Below, one piece after another: positions 1 to 60,829 of a DNA stretch of 64,000 nt; the stretch's first letter is position 1; each line of letters opens with the position of its first letter. A program made the translations under genes and the position numbers. The notes below the pieces were generated by a model. That model saw only the letters and a program-made list of their open reading frames with translations. It was not told where the DNA came from and ran no database searches. Source of the DNA: Thysanoteuthis rhombus (taxonomy: Eukaryota; Mollusca; Cephalopoda; Oegopsida; Thysanoteuthidae); NCBI GenBank assembly GCA_963457665.1, contig OY735207.1, positions 46,725,196 through 46,789,195 on the forward strand. The letters run 5' to 3'.

Positions 1-279
1 CCAGTATTTCCTGAATCTGTCAAGTTCATCTCTCTATCTTGTGTTCTGTCGGCCTCGGTTTCTCACGTGATCTCTGGGGATCCATATCGTGAGACGTGAT
101 GTGCATTGGTTGTCTTTCATTCTTGCAACGTGGCCTGCCCATTACCATTTGAGTTTTTTAATAGTTTTTATGATGTCATGGACTCCCGTTTTCTTCTTTA
201 TATACTGTGCTGCCTTGTGATCTCTCCATGTAAGGTTGAGCATGATTCTCTCATGTGAACGTTGCATACTTCTCAGTTT
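1..279 (-). mobile_element. RTE-like LINE 3' fragment, cut by window edge
   Basis: The minus strand reads as the C-terminal end of an RTE-type retrotransposon ORF, the part downstream of the reverse transcriptase. It aligns by eye over nearly its whole length with 60417-60690, differing by scattered substitutions. The 3' end and trinucleotide tail lie left of base 1. The 5' side stops near 279, where similarity to the other copies ends. No long open frame remains on the coding strand, so this is a dead, 5'-truncated insertion. Confidence 0.85.
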
Positions 280-17132: not shown

Positions 17133-20100
17133 TTTTCTTGCTTTCGAGGTCAATAGCAGACTAACCATTAGGCTCAGTAGGCATTTCTTGCTTTTGGGGC
17201 CAGTAGCGGATTATTCGTTTGGCTGGGTAGGTTTTTCTCTCTCTCTCTTTCGTAAAACTCTTTTATTAAGTTTTGACTTTATTTTCCTATGTAATAATGA
17301 CGGACGACAATGACCAAACCAACGTTATTTTGGAATGATATTGCATTGAGAAATACAGTTTTGTTTAATCTTTAGATTTTAATGAAGCAAAGGGGTTCGG
17401 CCCTAGCACAGTCAAGCTTGTTCAAATATACCGTGTGGGATTAATTTGTACAAATTCGAGAAATTTTGTCTAAAATGACAAACACGTTGTAGACAGGTGC
17501 CAAGAATTACAGGTGTAATGTTCGACAATCAAAACGCACTAAAAAAAATGCTGTTAAATTGGAAAAGTTTCAACGTGAAAACAAATTCTTTCTGTTTGTG
17601 CAGTACCGGTTTTTCGGTTTTGATGTAAACTGACTCCAAAACCGGCAAGTGAAAGGATGATCTTGCGATACAGACAACTTTGAAGCAGTCCTCTTTATCT
17701 GCCTTTGCCCACTCTGGGGTTATCTGATATATGTTGGTACTATCACCGAGTCAATTTACTCATGAAAGGCGGCTGTTTCCTTTTTCCTATTAATCTATGG
17801 CGAATGTAGGATGGAACGTGCCGGTCTATTCAGTTCTCCGATCTTAGGGATGTGCAGCCTACGTATCTGGAATAGCACCGGCACGGGAATTCTCGAAATA
17901 GTCTGGTCTTTTGTGTGGCAGCTACGAAATCCTTTTGGATGGAAGACAAGATTTTTTCTGGTATTAAATTCAACACCGGGGGTTTATTGCAGGGAGGCAA
18001 TGGGTGATAGTCTTAGTTACTTGATTAACAATTCGCATGGAAACATTGTCTATCCGCAGTATTTCAAGGTAAACCGGACACTTTTGTGGACCTATCTTTT
18101 TATCACATGGAAAACTATCCTCTTTTGGAAGCAGTTCAAGACTACGTCATTCTCGATAAGTATAGACTTCACAGTGTACGGTTCGGGAGTTAATTCGCTT
18201 TCAGAGCAAATTATAAATGCTCCATAAACCAGAGTGTTGATGAGATTTGCCGGCCTTTGTTTTAGACTAAAACAATCTCAACGTGTGTGCAGACCACTTA
18301 AGTTTTCGTAAGGAATCCAGACTCACGCTTTTCAACAAGAACACCAAGAAGGAGCGAGGGGCCATTTTATTCATTTGGTAAAGTAAATTTGAGAAATGGG
18401 TTTAACGAGTTGAGCTTTAGGAAGAAATAGTTACAATCAGGATCCATTTTGAGAATAAACAAAGTATCCTCAAAAAATCGGAAATAAACTTTGGGTTTTT
18501 GGATGAGCTCAAAGAGTTGTTCTGAAAAAACAAAAACTAATAAACAACACAGGTGTAAGCCTAAGCCGGCTTGAATGGAGTGTCCATCGCAACTCTGCCT
18601 ATTCGGCATTACATCTCATTGTTAAAGCTGAATTCTCCTGATGTTATAGCGAACTCCATCAACTCAATAAATAATTTCTCTGGGAAAGAAGGGCGATCAA
18701 GTATTCATCAAGCATCGGCACATTGTCTCATCTAAAAGCATATTGGTAAAAAAAGGCGAAAAAAAACAAAAACAAAAACACAAAAACAAACAAACAAAGC
18801 CCACATAAAGCTGGTCTTCGGGTTTATGTCAGAATTTCGAGTAAAAAAGAACGAATGTAACGTGTAATTTTCTGAGTATAGTTTTAGACAGGTTCGAGAA
18901 TCTCTGAGAATTTAGCGAGTCCGCGCTGAGCAGAGCCAATCATAGATAAAATGGGTCTTAGTAGTTTTGTGCATTTTTGGTTGACCATACATTCGTGGGG
19001 TGCTGTGAATCAGTGGGCCTAATTCTATCATGAATATCTTGAGTCAACAAATTATCTTTAACCAATTCGAGGAATCTTTTTTTTTTGTATTTTCTATTAA
19101 ACTTTGGCTTCACCTACCTTTTGAAATTTATTTTGGTCATCGAATACAATATCCATTTTGTTTAAGGAGTCCATTTGATTCAAAATAATGACTCCTGATC
19201 CCTTATTGGGCTCGGTGATGCGGAGTTATTTGTTATTCCTTGGTGATTTTATAGCTTGAAATTGTTTTCTGAGCTTGTTTTCATTAAGCTAAATTATAAT
19301 CACCTTTTTATCATTTTTTTAAAGGAAATATTTAGCTATAGATTTTTTCACAAGGGATTTACTTTTATCACTTTTCAATGCTGACGTGACAACCAGTGTC
19401 AACTGAAAATTTGATCTAATGACTTGAATCAAATTTGGGGTACATAATACCTATACGGTGCTATGTATTTTCTACGCTTATTCAAGGGCATGGCTAAATG
19501 ACAGCGGGGTGGGGAGATTGTGTGGCGTCAGTTTTCCTATTGAGGAGTATCTTCATCGATATCCGCCATTCGAAACTGTGGCTTTAACATCGACAACAAG
19601 CACAAGTTGGAAATGTGCAACGACATCTGCCACAAAACATTTTTTCTCAATGAACTTGTAAATAAGGGTAGAACGATTGATTATGGAAATCTAACCACTC
19701 AGCTTGTGAGCTTGGACCCCCTGAGCTACACATTCTTCTTTTTCTTCTTCTTGTTCCGTAACCTTTATAGAGGGTACTCTTCTGACGAGTCGGTTTGCTT
19801 GCCCTTCAGAGTCTCGTGTACAGACATCAGCACTAATGTTTGGTCTTACCTCTCGACCTCTTGTTTCCATTGTGGCCCGTCAATGGCGTGGGAATCCATG
19901 CTGGACTTATCTTCTCTTCTTCCTGTCTATGAATTACTCGATTTCGTTCTCTTTTCTTTTCCTTTCGCATTGGGCCTGGTGAACTACCCCCTCTCCTTCT
20001 CCCTCATTCTCTCCCCCCTCTATCTCATGCTCTCTCACACATACATTTACACGTGTGTGCATGTGTTCATGCGTAAGTGCGTACCTAAATATCTGTATCT

Positions 20101-27339: not shown

Positions 27340-28017
27340 AATAACATTAGACTTGATTCAAGAAATCACTAAGATCAAAATCGAGGACACAGAACTGGAG
27401 AAAGTAGACCACTACATCTACCTAGGACAACGAATCTCCATGAGACCCTCAAAAGAAGAAGAAATCAAGCGAAGAATCACACTAGGATGGCAAGCCTTTG
27501 GCAGAGCAAGCTCAACCTTCAAAAATAAGAAAATCTCATTAATCCTAAAGTGAAGGGTGTATAAACGATGCTTCCTCCCAATAGTCACTTATGGAGCTGA
27601 AACATGGAACATAACGAAAAGACAGACCCGTAAATTGAGAACCATGCAACATGCACATGAAAGAATTACGCAGGGCCTCACATGGAGAGACCATAAGACA
27701 GCACAGTACATCAGAGAAAAGACATGAGTTAGGGACATCATAGAATCCATTAAAAATCTTAAATGGCGATGGGCTGGCCATATTGCAAGAATGGTAGACA
27801 ACCGATGGACATCGTGACTCACGACATGGATCCCCCGAGATCACATGTGCAACCGAGGTCGACAGAATATTAGATGGAGAGACGAGCCAGGCAAGTTCAG
27901 GAAGTACTGGCTCTGCAACGCCCATGATAGAGAAGTGTGGCAAATCCTGGGGAAGGTCTACGTCCAACGAAGGACGTTAAAAGACCGATGATGATGATGA
28001 TGATGATAATGATGATG
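27340..28017 (+). mobile_element. RTE-like LINE 3' end, near-intact C-terminal region
   Basis: The plus-strand frame starting near 27341 reads the RTE C-terminal region, with YIYLGQRISM, EEEIKRRITLGWQAFGRASS, then a stop at 27550 and resumption in the same frame through YGAETWN, MQHAHERITQGLTWRDHK and WRDE, to RRTLKDR. It ends in a (GAT)n tail at 27987-28017, the expected 3' terminus. The reverse transcriptase and the apurinic endonuclease are absent. This is a 5'-truncated, inactive copy. Confidence 0.9.
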
Positions 28018-32271: not shown

Positions 32272-32776
32272 ATTGGGATGGCAAGCCTTCGGCAGAGTAA
32301 GTTAAACTTTCAAAAACCAGATGATCCCAATAATCCTGAAAAGAAGAGAATACAACCAATGCATCCCCCCGATAGTCGCTTATGGAGCTGAAACATGGAA
32401 CCTAACCAAGAGACAGACCTGCAAACTGAGAAGTATGCAACGTGCGCATGAGAAAATCATGCTCAACCTTACATGGAGAGACCACAAGGCAGCACGGTAT
32501 ATAAGGAAGAAAACAGGAGTTCGTGACATCATAGAAACTATTTAAAAAACTCAAATCGCAATGGGCAGGCCATCTTGCAAGAATGAATGACAACCGATGG
32601 ACATCACGACTCACAACATGGATTCCCAGAGATCACAAGAGAAATCGAAGCTGACAGAACACGAGATGGGGAGATGAACTGGACAGATTCAGGAAATACT
32701 GGCTCTGCAACGCCCATGATAGAGAATTGTGGCGAATCTTGGGGAAGGTCTATGTCCAACGACAGAGGTTAAAAGA

Positions 32777-32823
<47 letters not shown>
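32272..32823 (+). mobile_element. RTE-like LINE 3' end
   Basis: The truncated copy starts within the GWQAFGR coding region. It shows YGAETWNLTKRQTCK, MLNLTWRDHKAARYIRKKTG and then a frameshift/stop near 32543, after which the GHLARMNDNRW and TTWIPRDHKRN regions follow. It ends with 15 or more ATG units, 32777-32823. Residue differences from the 27340 copy (MLNLTWRD versus TQGLTWRD) suggest a second subfamily. Confidence 0.9.
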
Positions 32824-35243: not shown

Positions 35244-35664
35244 GTCATCATCATCATCATCATCATCATCAGTCTTTTAGCGTCCGTCGTTGGATTTGCC
35301 ACACTTCTCTATCATGGGCGTCACGGAGCCAGTACTTCCTGAACTTGTCTAGCTCATCTCTCCATCCAACAGTTTGCCGGCCGCCATTTGAGATTTTTAA
35401 TGGATTCTACGATGTCCCTGACTTTTGTCTTTTTTCAGATGTACTGTGTTGTTTTGTGGTCTCTCAATGTGAGGCCCAGCATTATTCTTTCATGTGCACG
35501 TTGCATGGTTCTCAATTTACGGATCTGTCTCTTGGTTAAGTTCCATGTTTCAGCTCCATAAGTGACTATTGGGAGGATGCATTGGTTATACACCCTTCTC
35601 TTTAGGATTAATGGGATCTTCTTAATTTTGAAGGTTGAGCTAGCTCTGCCAAGCTTCAAATCCC
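35244..35664 (-). mobile_element. RTE-like LINE 3' end with internal deletion
   Basis: Plus-strand (ATC)n at 35245-35272 is the reversed tail. Coding pieces read from 35659 down: LGRASSTF, LILKRRVYNQCILPIVTYG and MLGLTLRDHKTTQYI. At about 35370 the segment that encodes the GHVARM...RWTSRL...PRDH region is missing: the sequence jumps from the IKNLK region to the end of the WRDELD region. About 130-160 bases are lost relative to the 60.3 kb copy. Confidence 0.88.
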
Positions 35665-37470: not shown

Positions 37471-38090
37471 TTAGGCGTCATTTTTATAGATATAAGTTTA
37501 ATGAAAGATGATACTTGAAGAACGTTTTCTTTTTAATTTTTCAGATTTCAATGTTTTTCACTTAAGGAGAAAAAACGCATGTCTAGATGATATGGATGCA
37601 CAGTATCACCCATGAAAGACCACATCCTCCACCAAATTGTATAAAAAGAATTCTTTCTCAACCAAACATACCTGGAACTTATTATTTTCTAGTCGGGTAT
37701 TATATGACAAAAATGGATATAATCAGGTGTTATTTTTTTACTAAACTCTACAGCATTAGAACACCGTATCCAAAAATGTGAATATGTATCACAGAAAACA
37801 TAAGTACACCCCGTACGAAAAATGTTCGTGCAGGCCATGTCGTCTTTTTGATATTCTGAAATAACCTTCAGCATTCATGATCCTATCAATGAAATGATAT
37901 TATATCTAATTTTTGGACTGCAAGATATTCATAATCTTGGTTACTGAGTTTCAATAATTGAGAGTTGAAGATCTTATTTAGTGTCGAGATTCTTGATTTT
38001 ATGATGAGGGCTTCATGAACCCGATGCCCATTTTTGGGGAAATAAATGATTGTTATTATACGTGTATCGTTTACGGGTATTCATCTTAGC
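37468..38090. other. Unassigned sequence
   Basis: No feature was recognised. Confidence 0.4.
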
Positions 38091-38092
38091 AT

Positions 38093-39300
38093 AATCATCA
38101 GCCTTTTAGCGTCTTTCGTTGGACATAGCACTTCCCTGAGGATTCGCCAGACCTTTCTATCATACGCGTCGCGTAGCTAATATTTTCCGAACTTGTGTAC
38201 TTCGTCAAACCATTTTGTATTTTACAGTTTCACACATAATCTCTGGGAAACCACGTCGTGAGTCGTGATGTCAATCGTTTGTCTGACATTCTCACAACAT
38301 GACCAGCCCGTTGCCATTTGAGTTTTCTAATGTATTCTATGATATCAATAATCCCTGTCTTTTCTCTAATATACCGTGTTTTGTCATCTCTCCGAGTGCA
38401 TAATTCTCTCATGTGCATGTTGCATAGTTCTCAGTTTGCAGGTCAATCTTTTGGTTAGGTTCAGCTCCATGGGTGACTATCAGGAGGGTGCATTGGTTAT
38501 TGACCCTTTTTTCTAAGACTGATTGGATTTTTGAGTTCCTAAATGTTGAACATGCTCTACCGAAAGTGTGCCATCCTAGAGTGATTCATGGCGTGATTTC
38601 TTCCTCATTCGAAGATTCAATGGAGATTCGTTGTCTTAGGCAGATGTGCTACACTTTTTTTCAGGTCTGCTTTGTCGATTTTTATTGTTGTGTTTTTATC
38701 CTCAACATGTTTGCTGTACATGACATAAATTTTTACTGAAATTCATGAGAAGACCAACTGTCTTGCAATCTTCGTTCAGTTCGTCTAGCTTTGGAGATTA
38801 TGAAGGATTTTTTGCAAAAAAAAGACGAAGTCGTCAGCAAATTCGAGGCTAATCACGTATTCGCCCTCTTTTCTGGCCCCTTTATTTTCTCGGTCTAGGT
38901 TTCGGAAGATTATCTCGAGGCCGACTGTAAAGTGTGAGCTGGTATCATCTTGTCTCGCTCCTTTCCCGAGCAGAAAGGGCTCAGAGTCTTTATGTAGCCT
39001 GATAAATGATCTGCTGTGTTGGTATACACGTTGTATGATAGCGTTGATGACCTTGGGGATTTCCACTGATTCGAAGGTCTTCTCAAACTCAATGCTACAG
39101 CGAGTGGCATTTTATATTCAGCCGCTTCTTCTTTTCGTTGATTTACTGAATGGAGATGATTAATGGTTGAGCATCTTCTTTTGAATCGCAGCGTTTTGGT
39201 GATTCGGTTGGTGATTACTTTGGTAAAAAGTTTGTAGATGCAGTTGAGTAGGCATATCAGTTCCAAACAGTATTTGTTCATTTATTTGAGCACGGATGAT
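38093..39300 (-). mobile_element. Longest RTE-like LINE copy, with reverse transcriptase palm
   Basis: From the 5' side on the minus strand: ICLLNCIYKLFTKVITNRIT (about 39260-39200), STINHLHSVNQ, a frame break near 39100, VINAIIQRVY, then GARQDDTSSHFTVGLEII (about 38965-38915) and the palm box LEFADDFVFF at about 38850-38815. FADD keeps the two catalytic aspartates. The connector and C-terminal part continue to about 38093, where a short ATC remnant is all that is left of the tail. Frameshifts and stops break it throughout and the N-terminal endonuclease is absent. It is therefore not functional. Confidence 0.9.
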
Positions 39301-40185: not shown

Positions 40186-40510
40186 AAGAGATTACAACAT
40201 AGTATATAAGATAGAAAAAAGGGTGCCCGTGACATAATAGAAACTATTAAAAAACTCAAATGGCAACGGGCAGGCCATGTTGCAAGGATGAAAGACAACC
40301 GATGGACAGCACGTCTCACAACATGGATCCCCAGAGATCACATAAGAAACCGAGGCCGACAGAACAGAAGATGGAGAGATGAACTGGACAGAGTTAGGAA
40401 ATACTGGCTCTGCGACGCTTATCACAGAGAAGTGTGGCGAATCCTCGGGAAGGTCTATGTCCAACGACGGACGTTAAAAGACTAATGATGATGATGATAA
40501 TGATGATGAT
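40186..40510 (+). mobile_element. RTE-like LINE 3' end, short
   Basis: It begins at the coding equivalent of RDHKAARYI and has a frameshift near 40230. It then reads open through IKKLKWQRAGHVARMKDNRW, TTWIPRDHIRNRG, RWRDELDRVRKYWL, GKVYVQRRTLKD and stop, followed by (ATG)n to 40510. Over its last 80 codons it is the least damaged RTE copy here. Confidence 0.9.
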
Positions 40511-40689: not shown

Positions 40690-41145
40690 TCGATCAGGTT
40701 GGTCAATGACCAGTCAAAAGGCATTAAGACGAAAGACATCAGTTAAAAAGACCGCAATCTTGTACTGCCTACTGCAAGTTACAGTCGCATTCAGTCAAAA
40801 GGTATCAGTATAACACCGTTGTATAATTTTTAAAACTGAATTTCTACTGATTAAGTAATTTAATTTAGTATTTTGTATTTCCCATAAATTTTAAAGAAAT
40901 AAGTTTTATAGTGAATTTATTTTCTATTTCGTACCATATGTCACAGAAAGAATAGAGTAATTAGTCGTTTAATAATAATAATAAAAAAATCATATTTTTA
41001 TACGTTCTGCAGTGTTACCTTTTTGATTAATTCTGTTTGAATGGATGCGATTGTAACTTGCAGCACTCCGTATTATACAGTTGTCCTTTAAACTGATGCC
41101 TTTTGTCTTGATGCCTTTTGTCCTGATGCCTTTTGATCGAGAAGA
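40690..41145. mobile_element. MITE-like element D, copy 1
   Basis: Left arm 40711-40822 and right arm about 41000-41137 are inverted copies of each other. Words CAAAAGGCAT, CATCAGTT.AAA, ACTGCAAGTTACA.TCGCAT and TCAAAAGGTA on the left recur reverse-complemented on the right. About 175 bases of AT-rich centre separate them. Long inverted ends around a short non-coding core fit a non-autonomous DNA transposon. Outer ends and target duplication could not be fixed. Confidence 0.7.
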
Positions 41146-47465: not shown

Positions 47466-47472
47466 TATCGTA

Positions 47473-47827
47473 ACATGGAACCTAACCAAGAAACAGATCT
47501 GCAAATTGAGAACCATGCAACGTGCACATGAAAGAATTATGCGGGGCCTCACATGGAGAGACTACAAGACAGCACAGTACATCTGGGAAAAGACAAGTGT
47601 CAGGGACATCATACAAACTATTAAAAAACTCATATGGCAGTGGGCTGGCCATGTTGCATGAATGGCAGACAACCGATGGACATCACGACTCACAGCATGA
47701 ATCCCCCGATATCACATGCACAACCGAGGCCGGCAGAATATTAGATGGAGAGACAAGCTCGACAAGTTCAGAAAGTACTGGCTCTGCGACGCCCATGATA
47801 GAGAAGTGTGGTGAATCTTGGAGAAGA

Positions 47828-47878
<51 letters not shown>

Positions 47879-47884
47879 ATGATG
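47473..47884 (+). mobile_element. RTE-like LINE 3' end with altered tail
   Basis: It starts at the TWNLTKKQICK codons, abutting repeat E, and runs through MRGLTWRDYKTAQYI, KKLIWQWAGHVA, a stop at about 47660 and the remaining C-terminus. The last coding block (GKVYVQRRTLK) is deleted. The tail is (TGC)n passing into (TGA)n at 47832-47884, instead of pure ATG. Confidence 0.9.
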
Positions 47885-48520
47885 AACTATTACGTTATCC
47901 TTAACTTTTGACTCTTGAAAATAGATTATACATAACAGAGCCTGTAATAAGTTATTGAAGCCTTCAGATTGTATATCAATTACACTAGGTTTAAAGCAGC
48001 CAATATGTATGCAGTTAGGTTCAGTAGATGTTGTATCAAAGCTTCCAGATCTCTTTTACTGATAGGAATTGCATTCAGCTAGATTTGTCTGACTGAGATT
48101 AAACTGTTGATCAAGCAGGATCGGATAAATTTTGCAGTTTTAACCTTCAACCTAAAATTATCATTCTCTATAATTCTGTTTCAGTTTCCAACGCATTTAA
48201 CGTAAAGAGCACGAATAACTTTCCAGCTGCTTCAAATATCCCGTAACCGGTTGCATGGGCTTGAGATAACTTGACAACCAATAAGAATAGACTTTATTCT
48301 ACACGCACGAACAGATACCCTCGCCAGGGAGACGCCATAAAGTGAGCTTGAGTACTGTGCGACCATTGCATTCACAGTGAGCAAGTCTGCCCATTCTTAA
48401 CGTCTTGTGCAGGGGAGGGGGTTGACAAAAAGATCGCACCATCCAGGTCTGTCAGTCTCACTTCAGTCTAGATTTGCCCCCGTCATGTCTTAGTTACTTT
48501 TTTAAGACGGTAAAAAAACC
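47885..48520. other. Unassigned sequence
   Basis: No feature was recognised. Confidence 0.4.
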
Positions 48521-50499: not shown

Positions 50500-51300
50500 A
50501 ATACATATTCCAGATTAATAAAAAACGAAATGAAACTTTCATTCGTTAAAATTTACAAAATTAAATTACCCAATCAGTACAAATTCAGTTAAAATGCTTG
50601 TTCTGCAGTGTTGTCCTTTCGACTGATGCTTTTTGACCGTACGCAATTGTTTGAAGTTGTAGTTGTAGTTTGTACTGTAATATTGTCCTTTCGACTGATG
50701 CGTATTGTTTTGGTACCTCTCGGCGTTCAAGTTAGCTTCATACAACCTCAGTTATTTCATTGCGGTTACAATTTTCCCCTCTATCTGGCAGTAGAACATT
50801 CTCGTTAAAACCTTTCGTGAACCGAAATGATGCAAAGCGAAGAAGCAATTAATTTCCACATATATTGGATTTTTTAAAGCGTTTACAGAGCTCCTAAATG
50901 ATTATTTCTATTATTATTCGGACTATCCTCATCTTGGTTGTTTTTCATACAACGTTTCGGCCGTTGTACTCAACGGCCTTCATCAGGTATCATCTGGTAG
51001 GTGTGAGGAAGTAACGAACCGAACCCTTTATTTAACCACACCTACCAGATGATACCTGATGAAGGCCGTAGAGTACAACGGGCGAAACGTTGTATAAAAA
51101 ACAACCAAGATGAGGATAGTCCGAACAATAATAGAAATAATAATAATACCTCATCTCAAAAATTCAGAGATATACTCCTAAATGATGATGCCTTTTAGGC
51201 TCGAAGTCGTCTAAAATTTGGGTTGTCCTTTTGCCTAATGCCTTTTGACTGAATGCGGTGGTAACTTGCAGTATTCTATACTACACTATTGAACAGCTAA
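50500..51300. mobile_element. MITE-like element D, copy 2, interrupted
   Basis: From ATTACCCAATCAGTACAAAT through GTTCTGCAGTGTTGTCCTTT, the CAGTAGAACATTCTCGTTA and GATGCAAAGCGAAGAAGC blocks, to AAATGATGATGCCTTTTAGG and AACTTGCAGTATTC. The order follows copy 3 at 53530-54060. The internal block TTTCGACTGATGC occurs twice (about 50617 and 50689). The copy is split by a separate palindromic insertion at 50903-51174. Confidence 0.7.
50903..51174. mobile_element. Palindromic insertion with 12-base target duplication
   Basis: Arms 50904-51005 and 51037-51138 are 102 bases each and inverted, with four mismatches, around a 31-base loop. A non-palindromic 36-base extension (51139-51174) follows the right arm. 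CTCCTAAATGAT flanks the whole at 50891-50902 and 51175-51186. The related element at 53530-54060 has an uninterrupted CTCTAAAATGATGA at about 54011, which is the empty site. Each arm carries CTGATGA, a stem-loop and GAAAC (see findings). It fits an inverted pair of Penelope-type terminal repeats or a foldback element; no coding sequence is present. Confidence 0.8.
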
Positions 51301-53450: not shown

Positions 53451-53529
53451 TTATTGACAATATGTTTTATTTATCTACATACACAATTACAACTGATTTT
53501 GTATATTCCTTTGAAAGAGTGAATATTTC

Positions 53530-54060
53530 AATACAACACGCATCGGTTAAAAGGACAGCACTGTAGTACGGACTACTGCAAGTTACAATCGCAGTTGGTC
53601 AAAAGGTATCAGAAAAAAGAACAACACTGTTGTACTAATATTCTGATTGAATTTGCACAAATAAAGTAATTCAATAAAATTACCATAAATACATTTATAT
53701 CTACAAAAAATTGTAAATAAAAGTACTTAATTAGTGACATTCAGTTACAGTATACCTACCACAGTGTTGCTTTTTTAGACTGATGCCTTTTGTCTCGGTG
53801 CCTGCCGACCAATTACCATCTTGACATGACCTGTCAGTCCGCCGTTTGATTTGGCTGTATACCATCTTAGTTATTCCTTTACATTTACGAGTTTCTTTTC
53901 TATATGTAAGTAGAACATTCTTATTATAACCTTTCGTGAGCCAAAATGATGTAAAGCGAAGATGCAATTAAACTCCATGTATATTGGATTTTTAAAAAAA
54001 TTCCTAGCACTCTAAAATGATGACGTATTTTTTAGGTTCGAGGTCGTCTAAACAACCACA
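53530..54060. mobile_element. MITE-like element D, copy 3 (empty site)
   Basis: Left side: GGTTAAAAGGACAGCACTGTAG, ACTGCAAGTTACAATCGCA and GTCAAAAGGTATCAG. Right side: TTACAGTATACC, CAGTGTTGC, GACTGATGCCTTTTGTC, TAAGTAGAACATTCTTATTA, GATGTAAAGCGAAGATGC and TTTTTTAGGTTCGAGGTCGT. It is collinear with copy 2 and lacks the palindromic insertion. The sequence between the two sides is AT-rich and non-coding. Confidence 0.7.
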
Positions 54061-60289: not shown

Positions 60290-60338
<49 letters not shown>

Positions 60339-60829
60339 ATTTTTCAACGTCCGTCGTTGGACATAGATCTTCTCCAGGATTCGCCACACTTCTCAATCAT
60401 GGGCGTCGCAGAGCCAGTATTTCCTGAATCTGTCTAGTTCATCTCTCCATCTTGTGTTCTGTCGGCCTTGATTTCTTATGTGATCTCTGGGGATCCATGT
60501 TGTGAGACGTGATGTCCATCGATTGTCTTTCATTCTTGCTACATGGTCTGCCCATTACCATTTGGGTTTATTGATAATTTTTATGATGTCACGGACACCT
60601 TTTTTCTTCATTATATACTGTGCTGTCTTGTGGTCTCACCGTGTAAGGTTGAGCATGATTCTCTCATGCGCACGTTGCACACTTCTCAGTTTGTAGGTCT
60701 GTCTCTTGGTTAGATTCCATGTTTCAGCTCCATAAGTGACTATCGGGAGAATGCACTGGTTGTATACTCTTCTGTTTAGGATTATTGGGATCATCTGGTT
60801 CTTGAATGCTGAGCTTGCTCTGCCGAAGG
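60290..60829 (-). mobile_element. RTE-like LINE 3' end with long ATG tail
   Basis: The reversed tail is (ATC)n at 60290-60338, about 16 units. Reading from 60829 the coding strand gives FGRASSAF, QMIPIILNRRVYNQCILPIV, TYGAETWNLTKRQTYKLRSV, MLNLTR and then further C-terminal codons with breaks. It belongs to the same MLNLT subfamily as 32272-32823, and probably 1-279. Confidence 0.9.

Follow-up and report, generated by a model that had tools for sequence, protein, structure and literature searches.

The question raised by this locus is how two nearly identical arms carrying a hammerhead ribozyme motif came to stand in mirror image in the genome of the cephalopod Thysanoteuthis rhombus. The arms lie in the window, i.e. 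the whole stretch of 64,000 nucleotides of contig OY735207.1 that was analysed. In our reading, they are probably two 5′-truncated copies of the repeat (pLTR) of a Penelope-like element (PLE), inserted head to head by the double internal priming proposed below. The features are collected in Table 1; published elements are described from the accessible portions of the papers cited.

Table 1. Features of the insertion and other repeats in the window; PLE parts are named by analogy with known elements.
Feature	Position	Strand	Basis or remark
Element	50903-51174		mirror-image PLE-type insertion, two shortened copies head to head; 272-base frame
TSD, left copy, CTCCTAAATGAT	50891..50902	none	alignment to empty site
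Left pLTR copy, 5′-truncated, without tail	50903..51005	-	homologous in 39 other copies
Minimal type I hammerhead, left copy	50947..50990	-	descriptor match
Inner asymmetry ('loop')	51006..51036	none	further 5′ part of left copy
Right pLTR copy, 5′-truncated	51037..51139	+	arm comparison
Hammerhead, right copy, two stem II mismatches	51052..51095	+	arm comparison; predicted cleavage after 51091
Putative PLE ORF start (ATG)	51110..51174	+	10 codons to arm end, 21 through tail
PLE 'tail', 35 bases, right side only	51140..51174	+	presumably spans from RT start site 1 to site 2
TSD, right copy, CTCCTAAATGAT	51175..51186	none	alignment to empty site
Paralogous repeat, site unoccupied	53840..54052	+	aligned to the insertion's host repeat
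Decayed PLE-type RT fragment, not adjacent to insertion	18301..19282	-	three collinear tblastn pieces to the L041 PLE
Second, unrelated hammerhead	1000-960 (repeat 1190-945)	-	Rfam Hammerhead_1, 25.1 bits (gathering 34)
SINE-like hammerhead repeat, further copies	11611-11304; 13981-13672	-	three copies in window
Repeat family	27485-28017; 32276-32822; 35382-35652; 38081-38696		several copies end in (ATG)n or (ATC)n
Same repeat family, further copies	40194-40510; 47472-47885; 60294-60829; 1-279		

An earlier note, made from the letters of the window, had described a palindrome with a 31-base loop, a target duplication (TSD) and an empty site near 54011, all of which proved to be real. Its arms of 102 bases with four mismatches and its right-only extension of 36 bases are likewise present, with the lengths corrected to 103 bases for each arm (similarity between arms, E = 1e-87) and 35 bases for the extension. 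The left and right copies meet at 51035/51036 with a 2-nt microhomology, and the loop consists of upstream sequence that is also present in other copies, where it is joined at different points. The TSD at this insertion is 12 bp, and the paralogue aligns through the insertion site, where the duplicated stretch occurs once (CACTCTAAAATGATGACG). An exact 12-mer was found at both ends of a 272-base frame in 4 of 200,000 random frames from the window, and in 24 of 20,000 when each end was allowed an 8-base slide. The putative ORF start is weak, as 822 of the 2418 ATGs in the window open equally long frames. The host repeat of the insertion occupies 50560-51285, 53529-54052 and 40770-41116, with pieces in both orientations, and holds short inverted and tandem motifs of the CTGATGCCTTTTG type.

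The arms match head-to-head, 5′-truncated pLTR copies and the right-only extension matches a PLE 'tail'; the PLE features found are truncated inverted pLTRs, a 35-base tail, a TSD and a minimal hammerhead within the pLTR. In published elements, inverted pLTRs are mostly head to head and are flanked by TSDs of 8-10 bp; one of the pLTRs may bear an optional 31-bp tail (PMC3846280). The tail of 30-40 bases lies between two adjacent internal RT start sites, and the PLE protein cuts and extends both strands in vitro (PMC11167929). Carrying this Anolis work over, we read the fixed outer ends as RT start sites, so that the left copy presumably ends at site 1. The suggestion in the earlier note of a Penelope-related, retroposed insertion with a TSD and a hammerhead core is supported.

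A full-length partner was also sought. PLE ORFs with both RT and GIY-YIG domains occur in the genome, and 54 of 59 (the best 59 of 4446 candidates) are free of internal stops. The three PLE ORFs tested (two without stops and one with two stops) did not yield an autonomous partner for this pLTR; all three are flanked by another pLTR. The best piece of the decayed RT fragment in the window gave E 6e-4, compared with 0.1 for the best of 40 shuffled windows; its first piece alone is weak (E 0.025 on 3.2 kb), and stops are present. Searches of three of the pieces against Pfam and NCBIfam, of one piece against PDB, and of 10 window ORFs against Pfam gave nothing relevant. Sequence upstream of three genomic copies (L200, L178 and L182) is weakly similar to PLE flanks.

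On the minus strand, the left motif has the layout AUAC CUGAUGA A GGCCGUUG AGUA CAACGGCC GAAAC GUU^GUAU, with predicted cleavage between 50951 and 50950. This contains the type I minimal core (CUGANGA ... GAAA, A15.1-U16.1, NUH): the triplet GUU follows GAAAC, and the next four bases, GUAU, pair with the AUAC directly before CUGAUGA. The core string lies at 50986-50954 (-) and 51056-51088 (+). The right arm repeats the motif where the earlier note had placed it, but inexactly, with two of the four arm differences (arm positions 34 and 46) falling in stem II. A descriptor scan matched the left arm and not the right; the window gave two matches in all, the second being the unrelated hammerhead, versus two in 100 Markov windows. 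Rfam searches of the arms returned no hammerhead, either at the gathering score or at E 10.

The hammerhead had been called degenerate in the earlier note, which counted against activity an extra A before stem II and the apparent lack of an NUH triplet beside a presumed stem III. A degenerate hammerhead is not supported. In an alignment of 80 arms, 98.7% retain the extra A, and it recurs in a PLE on an independent contig, LJHE01000041.1 (see below). GUU before GUAU serves as the triplet. Stem III is also absent from the LJHE01000041.1 PLE, and this is normal for PLEs, in which most hammerheads are without helix III and possibly work as dimers (PMC6155905, PMC7761336). In known alignments, CUGAnGA is separated from the stems by no more than one or two additional nucleotides (PMC10085705), so one extra A is within the permitted range, whereas extra nucleotides at other core positions reduce activity (PMC3088659).

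The majority sequence of the 80 arms keeps the CTGATGA/GAAA core, in line with the consensus check proposed in the earlier note, and every core base is intact in 43 of the arms. An A.A mismatch at the pair of arm position 34 is seen in 67 of 79 arms, which makes the perfect 8-bp stem II of the left arm a minority variant. The T that closes this mismatch was found in 8 of 40 left arms (the window copy, L105, L106, L108, L114, L118, L120 and L130) and in none of 40 right arms, a skew that is possibly a query bias. Stem II covariation, which the earlier note had also put forward as a check, is weak within the arm family, where changes are mostly one-sided; across PLE families, the stem letters differ yet still pair.

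As a monomer, the left motif is predicted to form both stem I and stem II, with part of the core paired as well; folding it as the hammerhead alone costs 0.6 kcal/mol in stability. For the right motif, the monomer prediction is not the hammerhead, and in a predicted dimer of the motif AACGUU pairs with AACGUU. The hammerhead would be carried along in the pLTR. At this locus it is part of an inverted repeat of 103 bp whose arms would pair with each other (predicted -179.5 kcal/mol), so it is probably inactive here. The Anolis PLE hammerhead is reported to cleave solely when PLE protein is present (PMC11167929).

The motif recurs in other PLEs. A search pattern with a fixed core, in which the first pair of stem II and a single base of stem I were also set, was found at 82 loci (9 viral and 73 in genome contigs). 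Three of these have a stem II of at least 4 bp and a stem I of at least 3 bp: two on LJHE01000041.1 (L039 and L041), and L047, which we take as a chance match. The LJHE01000041.1 motif occurs twice, once per tandem copy of a full PLE with a 765-aa ORF, in which GIY-YIG is above the Pfam cut-off and RVT_1 just under it (29.2 versus 29.6 bits, E 9e-7). It has the identical extra A and the identical GAAACGUU, and its proximal stem I is 4 bp long; the remaining stem letters differ from the window arm but pair. The record is labelled as Epulopiscium, from a bacterial single cell, and its PLE sequence is probably DNA of the host fish. A third version of the motif, with one extra base at the identical place, is found in the flanks of the three tested PLE ORFs of the same genome as the window: CTGATGA-T-GAGA/TCTC-GAAAC (L211:604) and CTGATGA-T-GGGA/TCCC-GAAAC (L213:581 and L215:557), which differ by one stem II pair altered on both sides.

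Outside this genome, phage and plasmid searches gave no match to the window element. An exact 32-mer was absent from IMG/VR, CTGATGAAGGC...GCCGAAACGTTGT was absent from IMG/VR and from a collection of genome contigs, and the L041 PLE protein as an RT query found nothing in IMG/VR. A variant of the core with GTCG was found at 7 loci, 3 of them with a stem II of at least 4 bp.

To see how such insertions are built, we collected further copies from the genome (2.73 Gb, 514 contigs) with the full element (best 40 of 2953 candidates), a tail-free query (best 40 of 2770) and a single arm (best 40 of 1691), so that the counts apply to those copies that most resemble the one in the window. Removal of overlaps left 84 loci: 47 palindromes (the window copy, L098-L136 and L165-L171) and another 37 that only the single arm had added (L173-L209). 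The full and tail-free queries favour copies of ∼237-272 bases, and the near-constant total length in the palindrome set may reflect this bias. The single-arm query is blind to tail and loop, and its 37 loci provide a structure-neutral census. Arm and junction statistics rest on the first 40 copies (the window copy and L098-L136).

All 47 palindromes are head to head, and the outer ends of other copies coincide with those of the window element, as the earlier note had anticipated. It had also proposed to look for flank duplications of 10-15 bases. An exact TSD of at least 8 bases is present in 35 of the 47 palindromes (12 of 1148 with swapped flanks), and lengths run from 8 to 17 bp. The TSD letters are 72% A+T. 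The census separates into 26 simple pairs, nine solo arms (six tailed and three tailless) and two complex loci; 23 of the 26 simple pairs have a TSD of at least 8 bases, compared with 17 of 1010 with swapped flanks. The inner junctions differ between copies, with 33 distinct in 40; 13 show 1-3 nt of microhomology, 9 contain filler and 18 have neither. The right-arm reach is 0 in 11 of the 40 junction rows, within the stretch used. When the 5′ reach of both arms was measured by BLAST, in which it is bounded by the template, 39 distinct pairs were found in 42 one-tail palindromes. That the junctions differ between copies indicates that the palindromes form anew at each insertion.

Two loci (L128, oriented as -, and L179) contain tandem arrays of a 74-base unit inside the insertion; the unit begins immediately 3′ of the hammerhead and extends to where the tail ends. 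The TSD-like AAAAGTTC, seen by eye, lies outside the L128 array, placing its origin during or after insertion; the arrays perhaps come from repeated starts at site 2.

The tails follow a simple rule. In the single-arm census, each of the 26 simple pairs carries a single tail. Among the 40 copies from the tail-free query, 36 are one-tailed, one has two tails and three have none; the one-tailed share exceeds the 50% maximum expected if two sites were chosen independently (p = 9e-8). L099 has tails on both ends, with extra partial copies beside it. Among those scored as tailless, L171 has a truncated arm, L168 does carry a tail behind an (AAT)n expansion, and L126 stands as an exception. An 8-base TSD was found in none of these four; for L168 the wrong end was used. 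A rule of exactly one tail goes further than PMC3846280, whose accessible text calls the tail 'optional', and the rule was not found in the PLE literature searched, a search that key older papers lay beyond. In any genome that carries PLEs, it gives a sharp prediction that can be checked by counting.

The tailless arm was the longer in 15 of the 26 simple pairs and the tailed arm in 4, with no call in 7. A strict rule that the tailless arm is always longer was therefore rejected, and 15 to 4 is a bias only. In the palindrome set the tailless arm is longer in 24 and shorter in 12, possibly through query bias.

The two arms of a copy also share a source. The distance between partners is 0.082, compared with 0.108 under random pairing, and none of 5000 shuffles was as low. 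At 16 diagnostic non-CpG columns, partners agree at 0.859 versus 0.714 for random pairs, with a maximum of 0.793 in 3000 shuffles. The partner is the nearest neighbour in just 8 of 80 arms, as we would expect for old copies of a few subfamilies, and the arms thus show a shared source, not strictly a single molecule. Later gene conversion between the arms could add to their likeness.

These observations suggest a mechanism in which one PLE RNA is copied twice. The PLE protein would nick the two target strands ∼12 nt apart, and each nicked 3′ end would prime reverse transcription internally on the same RNA. The first cDNA would begin at site 1 and lack the tail; the second would begin at site 2, 35 nt downstream, and include it. 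With one cDNA on each target strand, both would stop early and their free ends would be joined. If each start site on an RNA could be used only once, one tail and one source would follow. The length bias is in the direction expected, since the tailless arm would start ahead. Against this mechanism, solo copies exist (9 of 37 in the census), and no difference in start site between strands is seen in vitro in the accessible text of PMC11167929, according to which the later steps of PLE integration are yet to be validated. The stronger proposal, that in this PLE family the two ends of an insertion obligatorily use different RT start sites of one RNA in a coordinated double copying by a two-subunit complex, is offered tentatively, at somewhat short of an even chance. 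If true, PLE integration would be a coupled dual-strand reaction, unlike the TPRT of LINEs. One long and one short outer end per insertion hints at how PLEs copy into DNA, and a family with well over 1000 first-look candidates in one genome provides a natural record of the reaction, since most of the copies examined are short pairs, joined head to head and flanked by TSDs.

The main alternative is snap-back or self-priming, in which a single cDNA or antisense template folds back and is copied into a palindrome. Head-to-head palindromes are common in PLEs and have been read in this way, with self-priming on an antisense template favoured (PMC3846280, accessible text); the alleles shared by both arms of a copy and the 1-3 nt microhomology at 13 of 40 junctions would suit it as well. 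However, an arm copied from an arm should repeat its outer end, whereas nearly all pairs combine a tailed and a tailless arm, and each kind of end stops at its own fixed site. We therefore regard snap-back as unlikely. It is much less probable again that the palindrome spreads as a unit, as the non-autonomous foldback of the earlier note or a retrozyme-like family would. Many copies do have coinciding ends, and the window copy and L099 share a junction (by BLAST reach, three pairs of copies do). Set against this are the 33 distinct junctions in 40 copies (39 in 42 by reach), the solo arms, and partner arms that are alike beyond chance, while no two copies share more than five arm-specific differences. 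Junction diversity and partner likeness together largely refute a foldback family, and 'foldback' as the type of element is abandoned.

The remaining explanations are weaker. A DNA transposon or MITE with long terminal inverted repeats would account for inverted arms and TSDs. Cut-and-paste elements have a constant TSD length, and here it varies from 8 to 17; the ends differ by the 35-base tail, the inner ends vary and a hammerhead is present, which makes this explanation hardly tenable. A microRNA precursor is more remote still, with a practically negligible probability: Rfam lists miRNA families at a low threshold, but all are below gathering and come from several unrelated families on both strands, as for any long hairpin, and the sequence is a dispersed repeat. 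These matches were rejected as hairpin artefacts.

The insertion resembles four known systems in part. Pen2a_Av of Adineta vaga likewise has inverted pLTRs, most commonly head to head, with a 31-bp tail on one, a 9-bp TSD, one pLTR shorter by 37 bp and an ORF start within the pLTR (PMC3846280). It carries an RT-EN ORF and its tail is optional, whereas the window insertion consists of truncated pLTRs only, in a family with one tail per pair. Poseidon PAc of Anolis carolinensis also has a minimal hammerhead, at the pLTR-ORF boundary, and two RT start sites that define a tail of 30-40 bases, with both strands cut and extended in vitro (PMC11167929); it was tested in vitro as a full element, and the accessible text of that paper does not assign a start site to each strand of a single insertion. 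The LJHE01000041.1 PLE shares CUGAUGA-A-stem II-GAAAC-GUU^, the 4-bp proximal stem I and an identical core, but consists of tandem full elements with RT and GIY-YIG, other stem sequences and a longer stem I. Metazoan retrozymes are also non-autonomous, with a type I hammerhead, and are possibly mobilised by PLEs (PMC7229834, PMC7761336). They form tandem units of 150-300 bp with canonical hammerheads that give circRNA, in contrast to the inverted window element and its minimal hammerhead. Retrozymes are recognised by tandem direct repeats bounded by hammerheads; here the repeats are inverted in 47 of 47 palindromes.

Two other repeat families in the window were noted. For the repeat whose copies end in (ATG)n or (ATC)n, Pfam gave no match for the ORFs tried; a translated stretch resembles what we take to be the RT end of a LINE. 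The second hammerhead, CTGAAGA-GTTGT-AAT-ACAAC-GAAA-CAGCTGTC^TGTGG, closes a SINE-like repeat on its 3′ side; stretches resembling an A-box and a B-box were judged by eye. A SINE-like precedent is known in Smalpha of schistosomes. Two of the three cores are mutated at GAAA, and conservation is highest in the hammerhead stretch (88% versus 76%).
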